DNA from: a virus | Strand: one strand, 5' to 3' | DNA length: 40,812 bases | Virus record (IMG/VR): IMGVR_UViG_3300037452_000123 | Location: 1-40,812 of that record | In this document: positions 23,235 to 36,445 of the stretch, in pieces | How the letters are laid out: each line of letters starts with the position of its first letter | Numbering within the stretch: position 1 is the stretch's first letter | The notes under the pieces: model-generated | The model's input: the letters and a program-made list of their open reading frames with translations, nothing else | Told to the model about the DNA's origin: nothing | Database searches by the model: none | Program-made: the position numbers and the translations under genes

Positions 23235-24242
23235 TCAGATCACGACGAAGGTGAAGCCCGTGACCACCGTGCATACCTTGGGCTTGGCAAGCACGAGCTC
23301 GAGCAAGGAGAGTATCGCGCCGATGTAACCGATCTGCCAGTTGGAGAGCGTGGATTCAAAACCCGTGAAGGCAAAAGCCGCGCGCTCGTGGATATAAAAA
23401 GCCATGTACCCGGTGTTCAGCAGATACATCGTGCCCTCGGGGCAGTAGGGGTCCATGTAGACCGGCACCCCCGAGACCATCAGCGCGCGAAACGCGCTTC
23501 TGGCTCCCCAAGGCTCATCGTCGAACCCCTTCTCCGGGGTGATGACATAGCTCTCGTTGGGTAGGTAATCGTTTTGCAGCGTCTGCCAGGTGGCCGGCCC
23601 CATCACCCCGAAGGTTGGGAGCTCGCCACCGTTCTTGAACGTGCCGGTGATGTACTGGGCAACCAGCGCGCGCGTCGGATTGACCGAACCGGCGGCGTAG
23701 CGCTTGGCTTTTAACCAAGTCTGGATCGTGCGCGACTGGCCGCCGTAGGAAACGGCATTGGTGCCGTCGTCGACAGCCGCCGGCAGACCGATAACTTGCT
23801 GCGTATTGGTGATGTTGTTGTAGAGCGCGGTGGCCACGCCATCGCAGTACACATTACCCGCGTCATTCATGCGGGCTGCGAGCAACGGAATTATTTCGTG
23901 GCTGTCCTGGATCAACCCCTCGAAACCCACGTAGGGAATCGGGATAACCGCAGCCTTGAGGTCGAATTCGAGGTTCGTAACCCCCGGCTGCACGGACGGC
24001 TGGGAGAACGAACCATCGTAGCCGACCCACTGCATGTTGACGAACTGACTGCCCTGAGCCGGTATCGTGACGGAGGACACGCCGCCGGATGCAGGCTGGC
24101 TGTTGGCAATGAGCGCCGCGGTGAGCGGACTCGTGTTGTAAATTTGGACAACGAGTTTCTTGACGAAAGCCCGTCGCACCACATACTGCAACTCCGTGCC
24201 AAGCGCGCCCGACGGAATTACACCTTGACCAAGAATCGGCAT
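23235..24242 (-). CDS. Major capsid protein (HK97-fold type)
   Basis: This 335-residue protein has one of the strongest SDs of the late operon (GGAG seven bases before ATG 24242). It lies immediately after a scaffold-like gene. It has an N-terminal arm, a long beta segment (SQPSVQPGVTNLEFDLKAAV), a helix region with ARMNDAGNVYCDGVATALYN, and a C-terminal part with RALMVSGVPVYMDPYCPEGT and YLLNTGYMAFYIHERAAFAF, in line with HK97-fold coat proteins of short-tailed phages. The fold call is inference; position and expression signal support the identity. Confidence 0.8.
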   Translation of the reverse strand: MPILGQGVIPSGALGTELQYVVRRAFVKKLVVQIYNTSPLTAALIANSQPASGGVSSVTIPAQGSQFVNMQWVGYDGSFSQPSVQPGVTNLEFDLKAAVIPIPYVGFEGLIQDSHEIIPLLAARMNDAGNVYCDGVATALYNNITNTQQVIGLPAAVDDGTNAVSYGGQSRTIQTWLKAKRYAAGSVNPTRALVAQYITGTFKNGGELPTFGVMGPATWQTLQNDYLPNESYVITPEKGFDDEPWGARSAFRALMVSGVPVYMDPYCPEGTMYLLNTGYMAFYIHERAAFAFTGFESTLSNWQIGYIGAILSLLELVLAKPKVCTVVTGFTFVVI

Positions 24243-24301: not shown

Positions 24302-24877
24302 TTACGTTTTGGCGCCCACCACTTCATTCCACGCTGCGTAAGCCTCGTTCAAAGCGATCTTGTCCAGGGCCTGCTTATTGCCTATGCCGCCCTTCCAAAT
24401 GTCTTTTTCCGGCATCTCGAACACCGGGGGTTTGGCTCCGATATGCGTGGGCACCGCCGAAGTCTTGCTCGCGGCAAAGACGCGCGAGGCCGCATCGTAG
24501 CCCGGGATGCGCACGTTGGCGTCCTCGGTCGTCATGAGCTTCTGGACTTCGAGCATTTCGTCATCGGTGAGCTTGTACTTTTCCTTGGCCTGCGCGCGCT
24601 GGCGCTCCAAGCGCTCCCGCACGTCGCGCTCGAGCATCCCTTGCTCGAGCTTAGCAATGCGCGCATCGCGCGCCTCGAGTTCAGGCTTCAGAGCATCGCG
24701 GGCGTCAATCTCGGGGATGATACGGGTGGGTTCGGCTTGCTTTACCAGGCGCAGGAAAGCTTCGCGCGTGGCTGGATTCTTGGAGAGGGTTTCCGTGAGG
24801 GCTGCCTGGCCCTGCCAGGAACGGGCAGTAGCCATCAGCTGGTCGGTTGTGAGGTCTTCGAGCGATTTGACGGTCAT
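24302..24877 (-). CDS. Scaffold-like protein, 191 aa
   Basis: The protein is almost entirely helical and charged. The centre (ARDALKPELEARDARIAKLE, RDVRERLERQRAQAKEKYKL) is a clear coiled coil; the N terminus contains DLTTDQLMATARSWQGQAAL. It sits directly upstream of the major capsid gene, the usual place of the scaffold. Length is within the common range for scaffolds. Function is inferred from the coiled coil and order. Confidence 0.7.
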   Translation of the reverse strand: MTVKSLEDLTTDQLMATARSWQGQAALTETLSKNPATREAFLRLVKQAEPTRIIPEIDARDALKPELEARDARIAKLEQGMLERDVRERLERQRAQAKEKYKLTDDEMLEVQKLMTTEDANVRIPGYDAASRVFAASKTSAVPTHIGAKPPVFEMPEKDIWKGGIGNKQALDKIALNEAYAAWNEVVGAKT

Positions 24878-25107: not shown

Positions 25108-25581
25108 TCAAACTCCTTGCGGTGCTGGTTGCTGCTGCGGGGGCTTATTGCCCTGACTCATCTGCTGCAAAATCTGGCGCTGCACATCGGTGCCTCCGCC
25201 CATCTGCGGAAGTTGCCGCACCATCTTGAGAACTTCGGCCGGCACCAGGTCGGACGAATCCTTGCGCGACGCCAGTGTACCCAAAATGGTAAGCGCTCGC
25301 ATTATTTTCTGCCCCTCCTTGCTCTCGGCCCCGAAAACGGGCAACGCTTCCTCGAGCATATTGAGGGAAATGTGAATGTTGGTCATGGCCGCGGCCTTCA
25401 AGCCCTCCTTCTCCTGGGGCTGAGCCATAGGCGCCGCCGCAGGGGACGCCATGCCGGCGCCCGGCGAGCCGCCGGGTGGTGCACCACCAGGCGGCGGGGC
25501 GGGCTGAGCGCCACCAGGGGGGCCTCCGGCACCACCGCCGGCACCCATCATCTGCTGCATGACCTCCGGGGGGACGCTCAC
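25108..25581 (-). CDS. Gly/Pro-rich protein with helical C terminus, 157 aa
   Basis: I place the start at GTG 25581, which overlaps the stop of the preceding micro-ORF (GTGA). The longer open frame to 25782 would add 67 residues of Arg/Ser-rich sequence that overlap better-supported small ORFs. The first part is low-complexity Gly/Pro/Ala (GAGGGAGGPPGGAQPAPPPG). The second is a helical domain (IHISLNMLEEALPVFGAESK, KIMRALTILGTLASRK) with PAEVLKMVRQLPQMGGG at its end. Such layout is seen in small proteins between portal and scaffold. Function unknown. Confidence 0.6.
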   Translation of the reverse strand: MSVPPEVMQQMMGAGGGAGGPPGGAQPAPPPGGAPPGGSPGAGMASPAAAPMAQPQEKEGLKAAAMTNIHISLNMLEEALPVFGAESKEGQKIMRALTILGTLASRKDSSDLVPAEVLKMVRQLPQMGGGTDVQRQILQQMSQGNKPPQQQPAPQGV

Positions 25582-25721
25582 CGGCGGACCATGCGCCCCG
25601 GCGCGCGCGCAACCGGGCGCGCTGTCGCGGCGGGGCGCAGCGCGGGACCGGGTGAGCGCACCGTCGGCGGACGAGCTTGAATGCGCGCAGGCAGGGCGAT
25701 AGGAGCCGCTCGCGTTGCCAT
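25578..25721 (-). CDS. Arg/Pro-rich small ORF, 47 aa
   Basis: ATG 25721 overlaps the preceding stop by one base (TGATG) and its own TGA overlaps the next GTG. The product starts MATRAAPIALPARIQARPPT and is rich in Arg, Pro and Ala to the end (ARPVARAPGRMVRR), with no acidic residue. Coupling on both sides suggests translation. In a GC-rich stretch such a composition can also arise by chance, so the call is tentative. Confidence 0.4.
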   Translation of the reverse strand: MATRAAPIALPARIQARPPTVRSPGPALRPAATARPVARAPGRMVRR

Positions 25722-25804
25722 CAACGGCTCGGGCTTTTTTTCTTGCGTTGTTTGTTGCGCGCGTACTTGCCGCCGCCGCCACGCGTTCGTGCCGGAAGTG
25801 CCAC
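25721..25804 (-). CDS. Basic micro-ORF, 27 aa
   Basis: GTG 25804 is preceded by AGGAGA with a good spacing. The product begins (M)ALPARTRGGGGKYARNKQR and ends KKKSPSR: a Gly linker followed by a nucleic-acid-binding-like basic tail. The good SD and the TGATG junction with the next ORF support translation. ALPAR recurs in the following ORF. No family is known to me. Confidence 0.5.
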   Translation of the reverse strand: MALPARTRGGGGKYARNKQRKKKSPSR

Positions 25805-25816
25805 GGGGGTCTCCTG

Positions 25817-25882
25817 CTAGCGTCTGCGCGTGCGCGCGCCTTTGAGGCGAGCCGGGCGCGCGGGTGGGTTGACCTGGTTCAT
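25817..25882 (-). CDS. Basic micro-ORF, 21 aa
   Basis: ATG 25882 opens a 21-codon frame starting MNQVNPPARPARLK and ending GARTRRR. Its start is 13 bases after the previous stop, and its stop is 12 bases before the next start. The SD region is poor and could fold (AGGGG/CCCCT). It is included because it fits a chain of basic micro-ORFs without gaps. Confidence 0.35.
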   Translation of the reverse strand: MNQVNPPARPARLKGARTRRR

Positions 25883-25895
25883 CAGGGGGTGACCC

Positions 25896-25949
25896 CTACT
25901 TGCGTCTGTGGCGGCGCCGGGCGCGCGCCATGTGGCCTGCTTCATTCAT
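25896..25949 (-). CDS. Arg-rich micro-ORF, 17 aa (MARARRRHRRK)
   Basis: ATG 25949 has AAGGA at six to seven bases. The peptide is MNEAGHMARARRRHRRK. Its last 11 residues repeat the plan of the 11-residue ORF at 26025-26060 (MARHRRRHKRK), with mostly synonymous codon differences between the two. That suggests selection on the peptide. It would bind nucleic acid through charge; any role is a guess. Confidence 0.5.
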   Translation of the reverse strand: MNEAGHMARARRRHRRK

Positions 25950-25966
25950 AGATTTTCCTTGGGGAT

Positions 25967-26003
25967 GAAAAATTGGGGCAAGGTGGTTATGCCACCCACC
26001 CCC
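25967..26003 (-). terminator. Terminator-like hairpin inside micro-ORF chain
   Basis: On the minus strand GGGG-GTG-GGTGG-CATAA-CCACC-TTG-CCCC forms a nine-pair stem with one 3x3 internal loop, followed by AATTTTT. It lies between the two MAR-x-RRRH-x-RK ORFs and could reduce transcription from the portal gene into scaffold and capsid genes. Confidence 0.5.
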
Positions 26004-26024
26004 AAAAGCTCAGCTGCGCAAGAC

Positions 26025-26060
26025 TTACTTGCGCTTGTGACGACGCCGATGACGGGCCAT
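26025..26060 (-). CDS. Arg-rich micro-ORF, 11 aa (MARHRRRHKRK)
   Basis: ATG 26060 is preceded by AAGGAGA with ideal spacing, and the frame ends after 11 codons: MARHRRRHKRK. Nine of eleven residues are His, Arg or Lys. A close copy occurs 75 bases downstream at 25896-25949. The strong SD is hard to explain if nothing is translated here. Confidence 0.5.
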   Translation of the reverse strand: MARHRRRHKRK

Positions 26061-26127
26061 AGTCTTCTCCTTCGTTAAAAGGCGGCCACCTGATTACGGG
26101 CAAGCAGCCACACCCGGATCAACTTGT

Positions 26128-26274
26128 CTACGAGTCCCGACTCTTAGAGCGCGAGTGACTCGAACGTTTCATCTTAGTCGCCGGGAAGCGACCCTTGGGG
26201 TTGCGGTTGAAGTTGCGCTTGTACGCGCCACCCGGAGTGTCCTTGGTGCCGCGCTTGGTGCCTTCATCAGCCAT
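26128..26274 (-). CDS. Small basic protein, 48 aa
   Basis: ATG 26274 follows the portal stop by two bases, with AAGGG upstream. The product begins MADEGTKRGTKDTPGGAYKR and ends in an Arg/Ser tail (MKRSSHSRSKSRDS), with NFNRNPKGRFPATK between. It is basic, Gly/Asn-rich and probably disordered, protamine-like in composition. It is the first of six basic small ORFs after the portal gene. No family is recognised. Confidence 0.65.
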   Translation of the reverse strand: MADEGTKRGTKDTPGGAYKRNFNRNPKGRFPATKMKRSSHSRSKSRDS

Positions 26275-26276
26275 AG

Positions 26277-27983
26277 TCATTTCCCTTTACCGTGGTGAGA
26301 TGCCGTGTGCGGATCCTGACCCGCTGCGGCGGCCATCTGCGCCTGCTTTTGCTCTTGCGCTTCAATCTTTTTGAGCCGTTCCTTAAGCATTTGTACCCCC
26401 GGAGGGTCGTACATGTCAAGCAAAGTCTCCCGGTCGATCGCGTGCGCCTCGAATAGCTGGATCGCATCATGCTTGCGATCCTCGACGAAGATCGGTGAAG
26501 AAGAATGGGCATCGACCTTGACTTCGAAGTCTTTGGTGAACTGCTCGGCAGTGAAAATCAACTCCTTGCCCATGGCGTCAGCTTTGAAGCGCTGCGGACT
26601 CTCCTCCTGGACGTTGCGCAGCATCAAGCTGGCAATGTCCTCAGCTGCCTCTTCGGCAACAATTGCGCGTTCTTTAGGCCGCGAGGAGCCCAAACGCGCC
26701 ATCAAGTCCGCCTGGCCGCGGGAGCGCACGCCCGGCTCACCCTTGCCCTGGAGCACGTGACCGATGCCGGCAATGTCGTCGAACATCTGATCGATCTGGG
26801 CGACCTCAGCGAACACATCGGCGGGCATCTGCGGAGCCAAGGACTCAATCTTACCCCCCGGCATGGCCGCCGAGAGGAAGCCCCCGGGAGAATTCAACGC
26901 CGCGAACTTTTCTTCAGCGATGCCGCCCATGCCTACGCCGTACTTGGGCGGCTTCAATTGCTTGGCCAGCAACTCGCGGATCTGGTAGACGCGCTCGGTG
27001 CGCCAATCCTGCAGCCAGGCCAGGCGTGCGGTAAAAGAGTCGCCCCAAAAATAATCGTAGAGGTTGTGCTCAGGGCGCACCACCACGAAGTGCGGCGCCC
27101 CCGCGATCCCGACGCGCGATGCCGGCCGATCGTAGATCGTCACCCCCGGCGCGGCGATGCTCGCCAGCTGATAATCCCTCAAGTCGTCGTCGTACACGTA
27201 AAGGTCGCACATATCGATCAAATCGGCCTCGACCTTGGGGCCATAGCTGTACTGCACGCTCCCGCGCCCGGTCATACCCCCCTCGATGTAGGACGAACTG
27301 CCGGTGCCCTGGCCGGTAGCAATCGACCCGGCAATACCGTCGACAGGGCCCCCGATGATGAGCCGGTTGAGCCCTTCGGAAAAGGGCTTTGTGCCGTCCG
27401 TTGACCCCCGGCTACCGGCGCGAGCCATGATGCCGCCCTTGCGCGGGTTACCCTCGAGCATGGATTCTAATTGCGTCCTGGTGATCGTGTAGCACATGCA
27501 ATAAGCTTCCTGGTCGGTGAGCTCTATCACATCTTCCCGCAGCACCCCGAACTGGTGAGGCTCCACGAGATACGTGCGAATCATCTTGTTGGCGCGACTC
27601 CACTGCACCTTCATGAGCATGGAGCCGAATACGAACGACCATTTGAGCGCCAGGCCAAAGCGCAGGTGCGTGCCGCTCATGCGCCACTGATCGGTTACCT
27701 CGCGAGCAATCGGCACCGCCTTGTACACATCCTCTGGGTCGGCCGTTTCCCCTAAGTGAATGGAGAAGCGCACCGCATCAGGGGAGTAAATGAAAGAAGA
27801 GAGCGTATCGATCGTGGAGCCGATCTTGTTGTAGGGCGCCCCCTCCTTGGAAGCGGCGCCGAACAGGTAGTAGTTGCGCAAGGAATTGTAAAAAGCAAAA
27901 CGCTCCTGCCGGCTCGCCAAACACTGGCGCGTGAGCTCGTCGTAGAACTGCTGACGTTCAACCGGCCCTTTGGGGATCTTCAC
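26277..27983 (-). CDS. Portal protein
   Basis: The 568-residue protein lies two genes downstream of the terminase region and is followed by the scaffold/capsid block. Its N terminus (RQQFYDELTRQCLASRQERF, YLFGAASKEGAPYNKIGSTI) and the central SSFIYSPDAVRFSIHLGE and LKWSFVFGSMLMKVQW match portal proteins of short-tailed phages. The long C-terminal part includes DQMFDDIAGIGHVLQGKG, ERAIVAEEAAEDIASLMLRN and a final helix rich in Lys, Glu and Gln. Twelve copies would form the DNA channel at one capsid vertex. Start ATG 27983. Confidence 0.9.
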   Translation of the reverse strand: MKIPKGPVERQQFYDELTRQCLASRQERFAFYNSLRNYYLFGAASKEGAPYNKIGSTIDTLSSFIYSPDAVRFSIHLGETADPEDVYKAVPIAREVTDQWRMSGTHLRFGLALKWSFVFGSMLMKVQWSRANKMIRTYLVEPHQFGVLREDVIELTDQEAYCMCYTITRTQLESMLEGNPRKGGIMARAGSRGSTDGTKPFSEGLNRLIIGGPVDGIAGSIATGQGTGSSSYIEGGMTGRGSVQYSYGPKVEADLIDMCDLYVYDDDLRDYQLASIAAPGVTIYDRPASRVGIAGAPHFVVVRPEHNLYDYFWGDSFTARLAWLQDWRTERVYQIRELLAKQLKPPKYGVGMGGIAEEKFAALNSPGGFLSAAMPGGKIESLAPQMPADVFAEVAQIDQMFDDIAGIGHVLQGKGEPGVRSRGQADLMARLGSSRPKERAIVAEEAAEDIASLMLRNVQEESPQRFKADAMGKELIFTAEQFTKDFEVKVDAHSSSPIFVEDRKHDAIQLFEAHAIDRETLLDMYDPPGVQMLKERLKKIEAQEQKQAQMAAAAGQDPHTASHHGKGK

Positions 27984-29504: not shown

Positions 29505-31307
29505 TCATCGCAAGCCCCGAAACCCTATCCCCTGGCGGCGCAGGTAGGCGAGCACGTTGGTCTCCACCGGGCTTTTTTGGCGAATCTCCTCCGGGGGGCG
29601 ATTCTCGCGCGCATAGGTGCGATTGTTGGCCTGGAGTTCCAACATCAGCTGGTCATTCCAAGCCATCACCGCGATGCACATCGCCACCACCATATCGTCC
29701 TTGGCCCGGCCTTCGCCGCCGATCTGATCGCCCTGCCGGTGGATGTTGCGAAACTGGGAGAGGCATTCGGGGGAGTTGATGCCGAGCATATCGCGCTCGA
29801 AGTAGGAGCGCGCCGTGGAGAACATGCGGATCTTCTCCTTGGCGTTGGTCTGCCACTGCAGCGCGTAGGAGCCCATCAGGCTATCCTGTTTACGCCAGAG
29901 GTAATCGCGAATATTGCCCACCACATCCATCGGCCCCTTGCGGGGGTCGCCGGCGCGCATCGTGCCGACCATGCGCTTCAAATTGTTGAGCTCATTGAAC
30001 ACCGCACCACCCGGGCCTTGCATCTCCAGGGCGAGGATGGTGTTGCCGTAAAAGCCCGCGAGGTGAGCGATCACCCAGGCGAACTGGGCCTCGGTCCACT
30101 CGGCCGTGTGCACTTCGACGGCCTGCTCCACCCGGTCGGCATAGCAGCGAAAGATGCACACCGCGAACTCGTCAGCCCATTCGGAGGATCCATAAGCCGG
30201 GTCTGCACCAAGGGCGTAGTAGCCCGGGGTCTGCGGCGTGCCATCGGCCGCACGGTCCTTAACAGGCCACTCCCACACGGAGACCTCGGCATTGGCCTCG
30301 GAGGTCTCGATGAACTCGGTGTCTTCGAAGTTCAGGCCGAACTTATAGCGAAAGAACAAGCGATCGCGGGTTATAGCTTTCTGATACGCCGCGTTGGTGC
30401 GCTCGGAAGAGAAGAATTTGGATCCTGATAGCTGGAACGCATAGTTCTCCGTGGGCGGCATCTCCTGCAGAGCCATCTGCTCGTCGCCCTTGCACTGCTC
30501 GGTCACGTACCAGCGCCACCAGGCCAATTGCTCGGGCGTGATTTCAAAACCGTAGAGCTCGAAGACCTCACCCATCCACACCCGCTCATCGGTGGTGGGC
30601 TCGCCGTCCCAATACTCGGCGAACTCGATCGAGTTGCGATCCTTTTGGTAGAGCTCATTCCTCCACCAACCAATGAAGATCGCCTTTTGCGTCTGGGATT
30701 TTTTAGCGACCTCCCACATCTCGTAGAACATGTTGAAGCCGCGCGCCGTGGACTCAAATATGTAGAGCCGGTCGGGGTTGACTTGCGCCAGCGTGTTCAT
30801 GAGGGAAGTGAACCCCTCCTCGTCACCCCAGCTGGAGCACTCGGTGGCGTGCAGGAAGTTGACTGCCTTGCCGCGGCCCAGGTTGCCTTGCTTTCGCAAG
30901 CCGGCCACGAGATAGACCAACCGGGATTTGTTCGCCAGGATCAGCTGCGTGCGATTGTGCTTGTCCTGCTCGGGCTTCTTGTTGTTGGGCAAAGACTCCA
31001 TGTACTGATCAAGGTAAGAACGGAAGAGCTCGCGATTCTCATCGGTGTCCGTGACCACGGCGCCTTGCATACCCCCGTGGCGGAAGAGCCAGTAAAGATC
31101 GAGTGCAAGAGAGATGGTCGACACCCCCATCTGCCGGCCCTTGAGCACGACGAAGGTGTGCACGTCGCGCTCCAACCCCTCGGCTATCTCCTCAATGAAA
31201 TAGCGCTGCGAGCCCAGCCAGGTGAGTGGCTTGGGGCCCTTCTCCTTCGAATCGATTTGCAGCAGTTTGCAGAACGCTTCGAAGCGCGCGACGGAGAACT
31301 TTTCCAC
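29505..31307 (-). CDS. terL: Terminase large subunit
   Basis: The 600-residue protein has the ATPase motifs LKGRQMGVST (residues 55 to 64, Walker A-like) and VNFLHATECSSWG (Walker B with catalytic Glu), an ESTARGFN coupling motif, and a C-terminal RNase H-like nuclease with ALGADPAYG, ILALEMQGPGGAVFNEL and KDDMVVAMCIAVMAW as the three acidic sites. It packages DNA through the portal and cuts concatemers. No small terminase is obvious; candidates are the two genes upstream and the HTH protein downstream. Confidence 0.95.
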   Translation of the reverse strand: MEKFSVARFEAFCKLLQIDSKEKGPKPLTWLGSQRYFIEEIAEGLERDVHTFVVLKGRQMGVSTISLALDLYWLFRHGGMQGAVVTDTDENRELFRSYLDQYMESLPNNKKPEQDKHNRTQLILANKSRLVYLVAGLRKQGNLGRGKAVNFLHATECSSWGDEEGFTSLMNTLAQVNPDRLYIFESTARGFNMFYEMWEVAKKSQTQKAIFIGWWRNELYQKDRNSIEFAEYWDGEPTTDERVWMGEVFELYGFEITPEQLAWWRWYVTEQCKGDEQMALQEMPPTENYAFQLSGSKFFSSERTNAAYQKAITRDRLFFRYKFGLNFEDTEFIETSEANAEVSVWEWPVKDRAADGTPQTPGYYALGADPAYGSSEWADEFAVCIFRCYADRVEQAVEVHTAEWTEAQFAWVIAHLAGFYGNTILALEMQGPGGAVFNELNNLKRMVGTMRAGDPRKGPMDVVGNIRDYLWRKQDSLMGSYALQWQTNAKEKIRMFSTARSYFERDMLGINSPECLSQFRNIHRQGDQIGGEGRAKDDMVVAMCIAVMAWNDQLMLELQANNRTYARENRPPEEIRQKSPVETNVLAYLRRQGIGFRGLR

Positions 31308-34108: not shown

Positions 34109-36445
34109 TTATTTTGACCAATATTTGAAGCTTTTCCGATCATCGTCCTTACCTACGTGTTTTTGAAAACCAAGCCTTCGCAATATATTCGCTACGCGCA
34201 CCTGATTTTGTCTACCCACCGTCCGAGGATCGTAGCCAAGCGCGTTCTGCAAAACCCCTTCCAAAGTGATTTTTTCGGAAGTTTCCGTGACGAATTTGCG
34301 CACTGCATCAAAGCCGATTTCCTCCATTTCGAAGGTCTCGTGCTCGTCCTGTGCCAAACGCTCCGCGTCAGCCCAAGCGACCCCTCCCTGCTCAAAAAGG
34401 TACGCGCCTTCAGCCCAAAGTTGATCCCGATCCCGCGCGATGCGCTCTGCTTCCCCCCACTGCACCGTCACCGGTAGCCAACGGCGGTTGCCCGTGGCGT
34501 CCGACAGGAAGTCGTCCCGGTTGGTCGATCCGATCATCAGGAAGCGCCGCGGCACGGTTATCGCGATTTCCTCATACTTCGGGGTCCACCGATCCGCGCG
34601 CTGGGTCACCCAGGCGTTGACCGCTTCGTGGTCTCGTGCGCCAAGGCCGCGCAACTCCACCAATTCGGCCACCAGGCAGCCGCGCAGGCGCCGGGATAGC
34701 TCTGCATCCCGTTCGGCCAGATCGAGCGTCGTGAACGCTTCTGGTACCGGTGCCAGGGCTTCTATTGCGCTGCTCTTCCTCTTACCCTGCTGCGACGAAT
34801 GCAGGATCACCACCATATCCGCTTTGACCCCTGGCACCAGCGCGCGGCCGGCCAAGGCGGTCCACAAGTAGGTGGACACTGCGCGCGAGTAAGCACTCGG
34901 CGCCGCGGCAAATTGAGTTTCCAGGAAGGACTCAACCCGGCTTACCCCATCCCACACCAACCCCCGCACCCAATCCGCAGCTGAGTCGAACGCATTCTCC
35001 TTACCCACCAGCGCCACGGCATCGCGCAGCAATTCCCGTCCCATCGGCTCGAAACCGCGACGTTCTAGCTCCACCCGCGTGCGCAGGTAATCCTCATTGC
35101 GCCAAGGCACTAACACCCCGGCCAGCTGCCCAGCGCCACCCCCGTTCCCGCTCCACGGCGCCCACATGAGCTCCTGGCGGAAGTGATCCCAGGCGATCCG
35201 GCGCCACCAGCCGGGTGTCTGCAGCGCGCGCACCAGGTTCGAAGCGGTGGCCTGCCAACCCTTCTTGGATCGGGTCAGCCCGCTCCCGGGCCCCCCAGCG
35301 CCCGCCCAAGCCGCTGTAGGGTCCGCGTCATCACTGCCCAGGCCCAGGACTCCATTACCGCTCCGAGCAGAGCCCCCGTCAACACGGCCGCCGCTATCAG
35401 CAACCACAACGGCAAAGTCAGACGCGAAGCTTTGCTCATACCCCACTGCTTCAAGAAACGCTGCATCACTCCTCCCTGCGCAGTGCGCGTGCAAGCATTC
35501 GAAATGGCCCTGCTCATACCCGCCGGTACCGGCCAGGAACCAGGCTGTTGCGCTGGCCCCCGTATCTACGGTGTGGGTGTCTTCCCAGGGACAGGCAACG
35601 AAGAGCCGTCGCTCGTCTCGGCTGCCTTCGACGACCCACCCCCGGCGCTCGAGCCATATTCCGACTGGATCGGCACGGGTATGCTCGCTGGCGCGAAGCC
35701 CGCGCTGTGGTCCGCTGGTATCGAGGTCTGACCCCCGATCGTGTCCGTTGGCAACGGCCACAACCGGTCGAACCACTCCTCGTCGTGCGGGTTCATTCTC
35801 AAATGCTCGGCTCTGAGCAATGCCCGGTACGCCAAACTCTCGCTCGAGCTCGGCCCAGGCTGACTCGAATCGCTCGGCGCTGATGTTTGGGAATTTGTTT
35901 GGTAGCCCTCCTTCCCAAAAATATCGACCACCGGCAGGGTGCGTTCCGGCGGCGACGAACTGCTGGCCATCGGCAAGGAATTCGATTGCGCCTCCCCCGC
36001 GAACAGCGATGACGCGCTTTTTCCAATTGCCAGGCTCCAACTCAAATGCAAGCCCGACTCGGGCACTGCCGGGGCGCGCGCGCACAGGTAACACACCGAG
36101 CAGTACACCAAGGCGGGCACGGATCTTTGCGCACCCTCCTGGATTCGAAATATCAAGGTCGAGGAACCGGATAGATCGTGTACGCAGGCAGAATCCGAGG
36201 TCATCGTCTTTACTCCATTTGTCGATCATTGAAGGGTGAACGGCGATTGTCGTCCAGTGCGCAATACCCACGGCCAGGCGCTGCGCGTTGTATTTGCTCG
36301 GCACCTTGCCGATGGTCTTTAACTGGCTCTCCGGTGCTATTTTTGCGTTGGGGTTTGATACAACGGGCAGCATCTCGCCACCCAGCCCCAACCACAGAGA
36401 AAAGTGATTCCACTCCTCGGCCGAGGCCCCGTAGCGTTGCGTCAT
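34109..36445 (-). CDS. Primase-polymerase-like/VirE helicase fusion, 778 aa
   Basis: The N-terminal third resembles the bifunctional primase-polymerase fold: CLRTRSIRFLDLDIS with D96 and D98, and AAGTHPAGGRYFWEG later. A Cys/His element (VACPWEDTH, FECLHAHC) lies in the middle, like those of phage primases. The C-terminal third is a VirE-family ATPase: ILHSSQQGKRKSS is the Walker A position (about residue 550), and RRFLMIGSTNRDDFLSDATG with NRRWLPV is the family signature. The P-loop is unusual, SQQGKRKS instead of GxxGxGKS. It would prime and unwind for the family A polymerase. It is coded opposite to the polymerase operon. Confidence 0.85.
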   Translation of the reverse strand: MTQRYGASAEEWNHFSLWLGLGGEMLPVVSNPNAKIAPESQLKTIGKVPSKYNAQRLAVGIAHWTTIAVHPSMIDKWSKDDDLGFCLRTRSIRFLDLDISNPGGCAKIRARLGVLLGVLPVRARPGSARVGLAFELEPGNWKKRVIAVRGGGAIEFLADGQQFVAAGTHPAGGRYFWEGGLPNKFPNISAERFESAWAELEREFGVPGIAQSRAFENEPARRGVVRPVVAVANGHDRGSDLDTSGPQRGLRASEHTRADPVGIWLERRGWVVEGSRDERRLFVACPWEDTHTVDTGASATAWFLAGTGGYEQGHFECLHAHCAGRSDAAFLEAVGYEQSFASDFAVVVADSGGRVDGGSARSGNGVLGLGSDDADPTAAWAGAGGPGSGLTRSKKGWQATASNLVRALQTPGWWRRIAWDHFRQELMWAPWSGNGGGAGQLAGVLVPWRNEDYLRTRVELERRGFEPMGRELLRDAVALVGKENAFDSAADWVRGLVWDGVSRVESFLETQFAAAPSAYSRAVSTYLWTALAGRALVPGVKADMVVILHSSQQGKRKSSAIEALAPVPEAFTTLDLAERDAELSRRLRGCLVAELVELRGLGARDHEAVNAWVTQRADRWTPKYEEIAITVPRRFLMIGSTNRDDFLSDATGNRRWLPVTVQWGEAERIARDRDQLWAEGAYLFEQGGVAWADAERLAQDEHETFEMEEIGFDAVRKFVTETSEKITLEGVLQNALGYDPRTVGRQNQVRVANILRRLGFQKHVGKDDDRKSFKYWSK

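Follow-up and report, generated by a model that had tools for sequence, protein, structure and literature searches.

Conserved micro-ORFs for strongly basic peptides, and an RNA pseudoknot ahead of one of them, behind the portal gene of an uncultured phage group

Does the gap that separates this phage's portal gene from the next larger gene hold a set of very small genes, or only chance arginine-rich reading frames? The stretch of DNA analysed (here "the window") is a 40,812-base IMG/VR virus record, read at full length. Reading on from the portal gene, the original prediction had proposed a chain of six basic micro-ORFs of 48, 11, 17, 21, 27 and 47 codons; all are present on the minus strand with these lengths (Table 1), and their net charges (K+R minus D+E) are, from ORF1 to ORF6, +10, +7, +6, +7, +10 and +10. 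The Shine-Dalgarno (SD) sequences claimed for at least three of them can be read ahead of ORF2, ORF3 and ORF5, and the overlaps said to join the end of the chain to the next gene are likewise there.

The chain and its neighbors

Table 1. Features of the portal region of the window (positions on the 40,812-base record)
Feature	Position	Strand	Product	Remark
Next gene	25108..25581	(-)	157 aa	GTGA-coupled to ORF6
ORF6	25578..25721	(-)	47 aa, MATRAAPIALPARIQARPPTVRSPGPALRPAATARPVARAPGRMVRR	TGATG-coupled to ORF5
ORF5	25721..25804	(-)	27 aa, MALPARTRGGGGKYARNKQRKKKSPSR	GTG start; SD AGGAG
ORF4	25817..25882	(-)	21 aa, MNQVNPPARPARLKGARTRRR	Without a clear SD of its own
ORF3	25896..25949	(-)	17 aa, MNEAGHMARARRRHRRK	SD AAGGA
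ORF2	26025..26060	(-)	11 aa, MARHRRRHKRK	Best conserved of the six micro-genes
SD of ORF2	26067..26072	(-)		AAGGAG, read from the sequence
H-type RNA pseudoknot	26082..26116	(-)		Between ORF1 and ORF2
ORF1	26128..26274	(-)	48 aa, MADEGTKRGTKDTPGGAYKRNFNRNPKGRFPATKMKRSSHSRSKSRDS	Post-portal basic peptide
Portal protein gene	26277..27983	(-)	568 aa	Directly upstream of the micro-ORF chain
Major head protein	23235-24242			phrog_9953, E=2e-23
TerL	29505-31307

The window's own copy of the portal protein had no PHROG match in a profile search; it is identified through its homologues, 15 of 22 aligned sequences matching PHROG portal families (best phrog_1216, 4.5e-15), and a portal annotation is also present in records MW202753 and MW202825. 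The gene that follows the chain had been labeled a scaffold gene, a label that no family match backs: it is kept in 17 aligned relatives, and its comparison with PHROG gave no informative match. A charged 191-aa gene directly preceding the major capsid gene (24302-24877, minus strand) would seem at least as good a candidate for the scaffold, family searches of the two giving no convincing match for either. Scans of the window gap revealed no promoter-like site, and terminator-like sites no commoner than in shuffles; a tRNA and tmRNA search of the whole window found none.

Reading frames kept in relatives

Relatives retrieved with the portal protein as query are 100, 77, 63 and about 33% identical in it; in two circular records from Manatee Spring the figure is about 41%. 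Every nearer relative that was read has an ORF2-type peptide in the gap between portal and next gene: MARRHRRHKR (L003), MARHKRRHKRK (L004), MARAKRKGRKARK (L011) and MARKARKTRKGRK (L012), with an additional peptide ahead of the ORF2 counterpart in the last two (MRKAYKKTRKTRR, MYKKHKRSRKTRR). Together they belong to a family of 10-15-codon peptides, among them MARKARKGRKARK and MARRGRKGRK, for which at least about 120 homologues linked to the RNA element described below were found, all in this same slot. The motif AGGAG recurs in relatives 6-8 nt ahead of the ORF2-type ATG, some loci have tandem micro-ORFs (MAYKSVKRSRRGKRR, MARKARKHKR and MRRKGRKAKR in L205), and what is kept goes beyond basic charge, down to such sequences as RKGRK and RRHKR.

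The loci collected by pattern scan are biased by the peptide filter used to find them, so a second sample was drawn through the major capsid protein, with no peptide filter (the best 80 of at least 583 relatives in IMG/VR). Among the 63 of these loci that have a portal and enough sequence, 52 contain an SD-preceded basic micro-ORF (7-20 codons, at least 40% K/R), and many contain two or three in tandem, each copy with its own SD. The other 11 form a sub-clade with short gaps and neither micro-ORFs nor pseudoknot, although in the copies read an ORF of about 50 aa still follows the portal gene; the micro-ORFs are thus dispensable for this head type. When gap ORFs of 8-20 codons were taken from the capsid-sampled loci simply as AGGAG followed by ATG, with no composition filter, 47 of 51 distinct sequences had at least 45% K/R. 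Their pN/pS was 0.46 in frame, against 1.67 and 1.25 in the other two frames, and differences at codon positions 1, 2 and 3 numbered 178, 188 and 382, in pairs picked by nucleotide identity. For ORF2-type peptides by group, pN/pS was about 0.2-0.6, in a set conditioned on a peptide regular expression and hence biased.

These counts bear on the simplest alternative, that the chain is a set of arginine-rich frames arising by chance in GC-rich DNA. The window gap is indeed GC-rich, reaching 73% GC over the 270 nt that surround the next gene's start, but the same peptides are found in relatives whose gaps have about 43% GC, and none of 1000 dinucleotide shuffles of the window gap gave an SD-preceded ORF of 8-20 codons with at least 45% K/R. 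With the cut-off at 50% K/R, 191 micro-ORFs lie in the portal-to-next-gene gap of 143 relatives and one elsewhere, in about 2.5 Mb of strand scanned, and ORF2 is the only such SD-preceded ORF on either strand of the 40.8-kb window. Shuffles, enrichment in the gap and selection specific to one reading frame contradict this explanation, and we attach next to no weight to it. With SD, start and frame all conserved and purifying selection confined to that frame, it is well supported, on comparative sequence grounds, that the micro-ORFs are genuine, un-annotated genes for strongly basic peptides of 10-50 residues in a large group of uncultured phages. The suggestion that annotation had overlooked such genes is borne out by their frames, SDs, position and selection, and the comparison with relatives that the original prediction called for came out with frames conserved rather than lost.

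Records MW202753 (L011 4740-5038) and MW202825 (L012 7779-8039) have hypothetical genes annotated on the reverse strand over the micro-ORF region and omit the micro-ORFs; these reverse-strand ORFs are spurious.

The six ORFs were also compared with relatives one by one, against 2000 shuffles (floor p=0.0005); the matches are the best among 23 candidate peptides, and p is uncorrected for that choice. Every one of them, ORF1 to ORF6, has a counterpart in relatives at p=0.0005. ORF1 has 13 aligned homologous sequences with the core PGHAYKRNFN.xPxGxF...SRSKS and a pN/pS of 0.52, its homologues in L141 and L120 being those that beat all shuffles. ORF3 has two counterparts in L141, MNESGHRGARMRDRKKHR and MINETGHPAREGYKRRSRRK; its C-terminal half resembles ORF2, possibly through duplication. 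Two counterparts of ORF4 in L141 and one in L131 share PARLKGARTxxR, and for ORF5 six homologous peptides from five other loci could be aligned (core RGGGG[KR][YH]A; pN/pS 0.48 with seven aligned), the counterpart in L120 reaching the floor. ORF6, with a single clear counterpart, in L003, is the weakest case among the six. Comparison of ORF1, ORF5 and ORF6 with PHROG profiles gave no family at E<=0.1.

The chain varies in extent and surroundings. In L141, the closest relative by capsid protein, it is even longer than in the window; in L154 and L155 the gap is 1.2-1.8 kb, extra larger genes having been inserted behind the micro-ORFs, ahead of the next gene. The distant relatives L005, L006 and L010 (portal about 32% identical) have a post-portal basic ORF of about 40 codons (MRLRRRRGFTSKDVRQMPPKRKPFERAGERTRMTRRTIRKASR in L005/L006, for example); in L005/L006 two short hydrophobic ORFs come next.

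A pseudoknot ahead of ORF2

What tells most about the locus is an RNA element in the ORF1-ORF2 interval, which the original prediction had not mentioned. In the window and in L003, L004, L011 and L012, the non-coding DNA upstream of the ORF2-type ORF contains the sequence TRTGGCTGC..GTG[GA]CC. The RNA of this interval is predicted to form two interleaved helices. Stem 1 pairs CGGG (26116-26113) with CCCG (26100-26097), and stem 2 pairs GGCTGCT (26109-26103) with GGTGGCC (26090-26084), with a possible extension by two pairs (26102-26101 with 26092-26091); the outer pairs are partly supported. A pattern scan of viral contigs (core, SD and ATGGCNCG) returned at least 120 stretches, nearly all of those listed having the same module, with four chance matches (L100, L101, L111, L125). 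In every match carrying genes of the family, the portal precedes the element and the next gene follows it, all on the same strand.

Pairing and covariation were tested in an alignment of 73 distinct sequences, in which the invariance of TGGCTGC, AGGAG and ATGGC.CG is partly built in, these being fixed parts of the pattern in the core and peptide start. Stem 1 and the 3' half of stem 2 lie outside the pattern, so that the covariation is free of this bias. Of the cells, 93.2% are paired, compared with 85.8+-0.6 in shuffles, and the share falls to 38-66% when the partner is displaced by 1-3 columns; the covariation score of 0.246 (0.098+-0.009 shuffled) was reached in none of 500 shuffles. All 73 sequences keep the pair that closes stem 2, as U-A in 30, C-G in 27, A-U in 8, U-G in 7 and G-C in 1, and four pairs of stem 1 show double changes. 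In mid-stem 2, tandem G-U wobbles (U-G/G-U) are almost invariant. Columns 12 and 39, which also form a stem-2 pair, hold C-A in 21 of the 73 sequences, those of the GTGACC variant. More divergent copies have further compensatory changes: L155 and L154 replace C-G by A-U, and L144 replaces G-U by G-C. A covariance model finds the window copy at E=1.9e-9, with one copy per genome and always in the portal-to-next-gene gap. With covariation in both interleaved helices, a conserved, compact RNA pseudoknot of the H type upstream of ORF2 is well supported as a prediction from aligned sequences. Searches of Rfam 15 with the window and four relatives gave no match at the gathering threshold, and permissive scans gave unrelated sub-threshold matches only.

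Of the 107 rows in a tree of capsid proteins, 82 have the pseudoknot. They fall to either side of the midpoint root, and no more than 6 gains or losses account for the distribution. This fits an old pseudoknot that was lost several times, although the change counts do not separate gain from loss. At all 82 pseudoknot loci of the tree a micro-ORF is present, but the converse fails: micro-ORFs are also found without a detectable pseudoknot, which is accordingly inessential to them.

Since the window pseudoknot begins 11 nt past the ORF1 stop, pseudoknot-stimulated readthrough from ORF1 into ORF2 was considered; it was rejected because in the window another in-frame stop, TGA, comes 6 nt behind that of ORF1, and in L003 a TAG intervenes.

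Possible roles of peptides and pseudoknot

The pseudoknot is never without a micro-ORF behind it, stands between the upstream stop and the SD, and is single-copy in each genome, an arrangement which suggests a cis-acting translational operator for ORF2. The peptide itself may bind this operator, or a different head protein of the phage may; in most copies the pseudoknot ends about 9-12 nt ahead of the SD and leaves it unsequestered. The micro-ORFs of the chain would be late, strongly initiated genes, and their products non-specific polycations that bind nucleic acid and are produced at the same time as the portal and the other proteins of the head. Their task may be in assembling the head or in packaging DNA, by neutralizing charge inside the head or on a portal or head precursor. 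The original prediction had suggested protamine-like neutralization of DNA in the procapsid, RNA binding or help in portal-scaffold nucleation, any of which may apply. We regard this combination, of late polycation micro-genes for head assembly or packaging with the pseudoknot as operator of ORF2, as having about an even chance of being correct; it counts against it that Arg/Lys-rich peptides are compatible with many roles, that one sub-clade of 11 loci does without micro-ORFs, and that others have them with no detectable pseudoknot.

Small basic proteins of phage heads have a precedent in microvirus protein J (phiX174 type), a DNA-packaging protein encoded by a single gene in single-stranded DNA microviruses. 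The micro-ORF products would resemble it in being tiny, very basic and co-produced with phage head proteins; the likeness is one of description, and the phage of the window is a tailed one with double-stranded DNA, terminase and portal, in which several such genes stand in tandem. If the peptides are packaged, they would be an unusual, multi-gene case of DNA-neutralizing peptides in such a phage.

For the operator, gene 32 of T4 and RB69 offers a parallel: a pseudoknot lies 5' of its SD, and gp32 autogenously represses its own translation (PMC535899). The window has the same order, pseudoknot (26116-26082) upstream of SD (26072-26067), and would share with gene 32 a compact structure in a phage mRNA and a product for which nucleic-acid binding is expected. 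Sequence and gene are not those of the ORF2 locus. In T4, moreover, an unstructured UUAAA region of more than 40 nt carries cooperative gp32 (PMC535899), whereas here the spacing from pseudoknot to SD is about 9-12 nt and the product is a peptide of 10-15 residues.

Alternatively, the pseudoknot could be a small-metabolite riboswitch with the peptide as its regulated output, like the cyanobacterial Downstream-peptide and glnA motifs (RF01704/RF01739; peptides of 17-100 aa), which have the same layout of a compact conserved RNA directly upstream of a short conserved peptide ORF and are also known from environmental sequence (PMC2864571). Host range and gene context differ, the context here being head morphogenesis rather than metabolism; the window pseudoknot does not match the RF01704/RF01739 consensus, no Rfam family matched at a useful score, and a core of about 35 nt, nearly all of it helical, leaves scant room for a ligand pocket. 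A riboswitch is for these reasons quite improbable. The pseudoknot resembles, by analogy, both T4 gene 32 operators, in how it would work, and Downstream-peptide RNAs, in layout.

Another possibility is that the peptides work as arginine-rich motifs. Micro-peptides of this length and composition resemble the RNA-binding peptides of that class, and binding to the pseudoknot of their own mRNA could serve either strict autoregulation or antitermination of the lambda N type. That the peptide gene always stands behind the pseudoknot, and that the tandem U-G/G-U pairs of stem 2 are near-invariant, would suggest recognition. On the other hand, many relatives have the same type of peptide without a pseudoknot, so that the RNA cannot be all that it binds; the position of the element is late in the head operon rather than ahead of an early one; and no terminator series was identified. 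The N proteins of lambda and P22, in which an arginine-rich motif meets boxB RNA (PMC11480772), would be comparable in joining a short Arg-rich peptide to an RNA structure in the same transcript, but N is early, longer and an antiterminator acting on a simple hairpin, while here the genes are late and the structure is a pseudoknot. We hold specific binding of this kind to be possible, if somewhat unlikely. A combination of the two, in which the 10-15-residue peptides both recognize the pseudoknot of their own mRNA and serve as head-assembly polycations, their output tuned to free nucleic acid or to head formation, would be a self-contained RNA-peptide module; it is a doubtful proposal, which, if true, would place the peptides among the shortest conserved genes known, in a phage-wide family.

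It could also be that the peptides themselves do nothing, and that the micro-ORFs are leader peptides whose slow translation, through basic codons or nascent chains, shapes the mRNA or couples the next gene. Ten to 15 codons is a typical leader length, and the last ORFs of the window are coupled to the next gene by TGATG and GTGA. The pseudoknot, however, stands before ORF2 and not after it, the ORFs occur as two or three tandem copies each with its own SD, and their sequence is conserved beyond charge (RKGRK, RRHKR). In addition, 64 of 117 low-GC gaps have a promoter-like CTTGAC hexamer at most 260 nt before the next gene, so that translation of the micro-ORFs need not govern that gene. This hexamer often comes after the chain in low-GC relatives, where the micro-genes would close the upstream unit, the window chain being coupled instead; a role as leader only fits less well with such a site, and we judge it unlikely. 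An example from a low-GC relative is the TTGACA promoter-like site after the chain of L011 (4991-5018), with GC-rich hairpins ahead of it.

A literature search of open-licence papers found neither the pseudoknot element nor the peptide family described, although catalogues of small ORFs such as GMSC (down to 9 residues) may contain raw entries for such ORFs. The pseudoknot is a new and well-delimited RNA motif. Ordinary annotation has a size limit above the 10-15 codons of these conserved genes, so that an entire tier of the phage head operon has escaped notice, in a group that is uncultured and, with at least 583 capsid-protein relatives in IMG/VR, abundant.

Some minor observations concern possible hosts and the rest of the window. 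A blastn match to Arthrobacter phage DevitoJr (E=0.1), at the start of a 44-aa gene beside its tape-measure gene, was taken as chance. Seven of the relatives (L133-L139) are contigs of metagenome-assembled genomes from unrelated phyla, the assignments being Beta-, Gamma- and Alphaproteobacteria, Balneolaceae and Chloroflexi. At 36-38 kb, the four larger contigs have the size of a phage, so that they are likely mis-binned phages. Further along the window, 34109-36445 (minus strand) encodes a protein of 778 aa, Prim-Pol-like in its N-terminal domain, which also has a VapE-like helicase domain.
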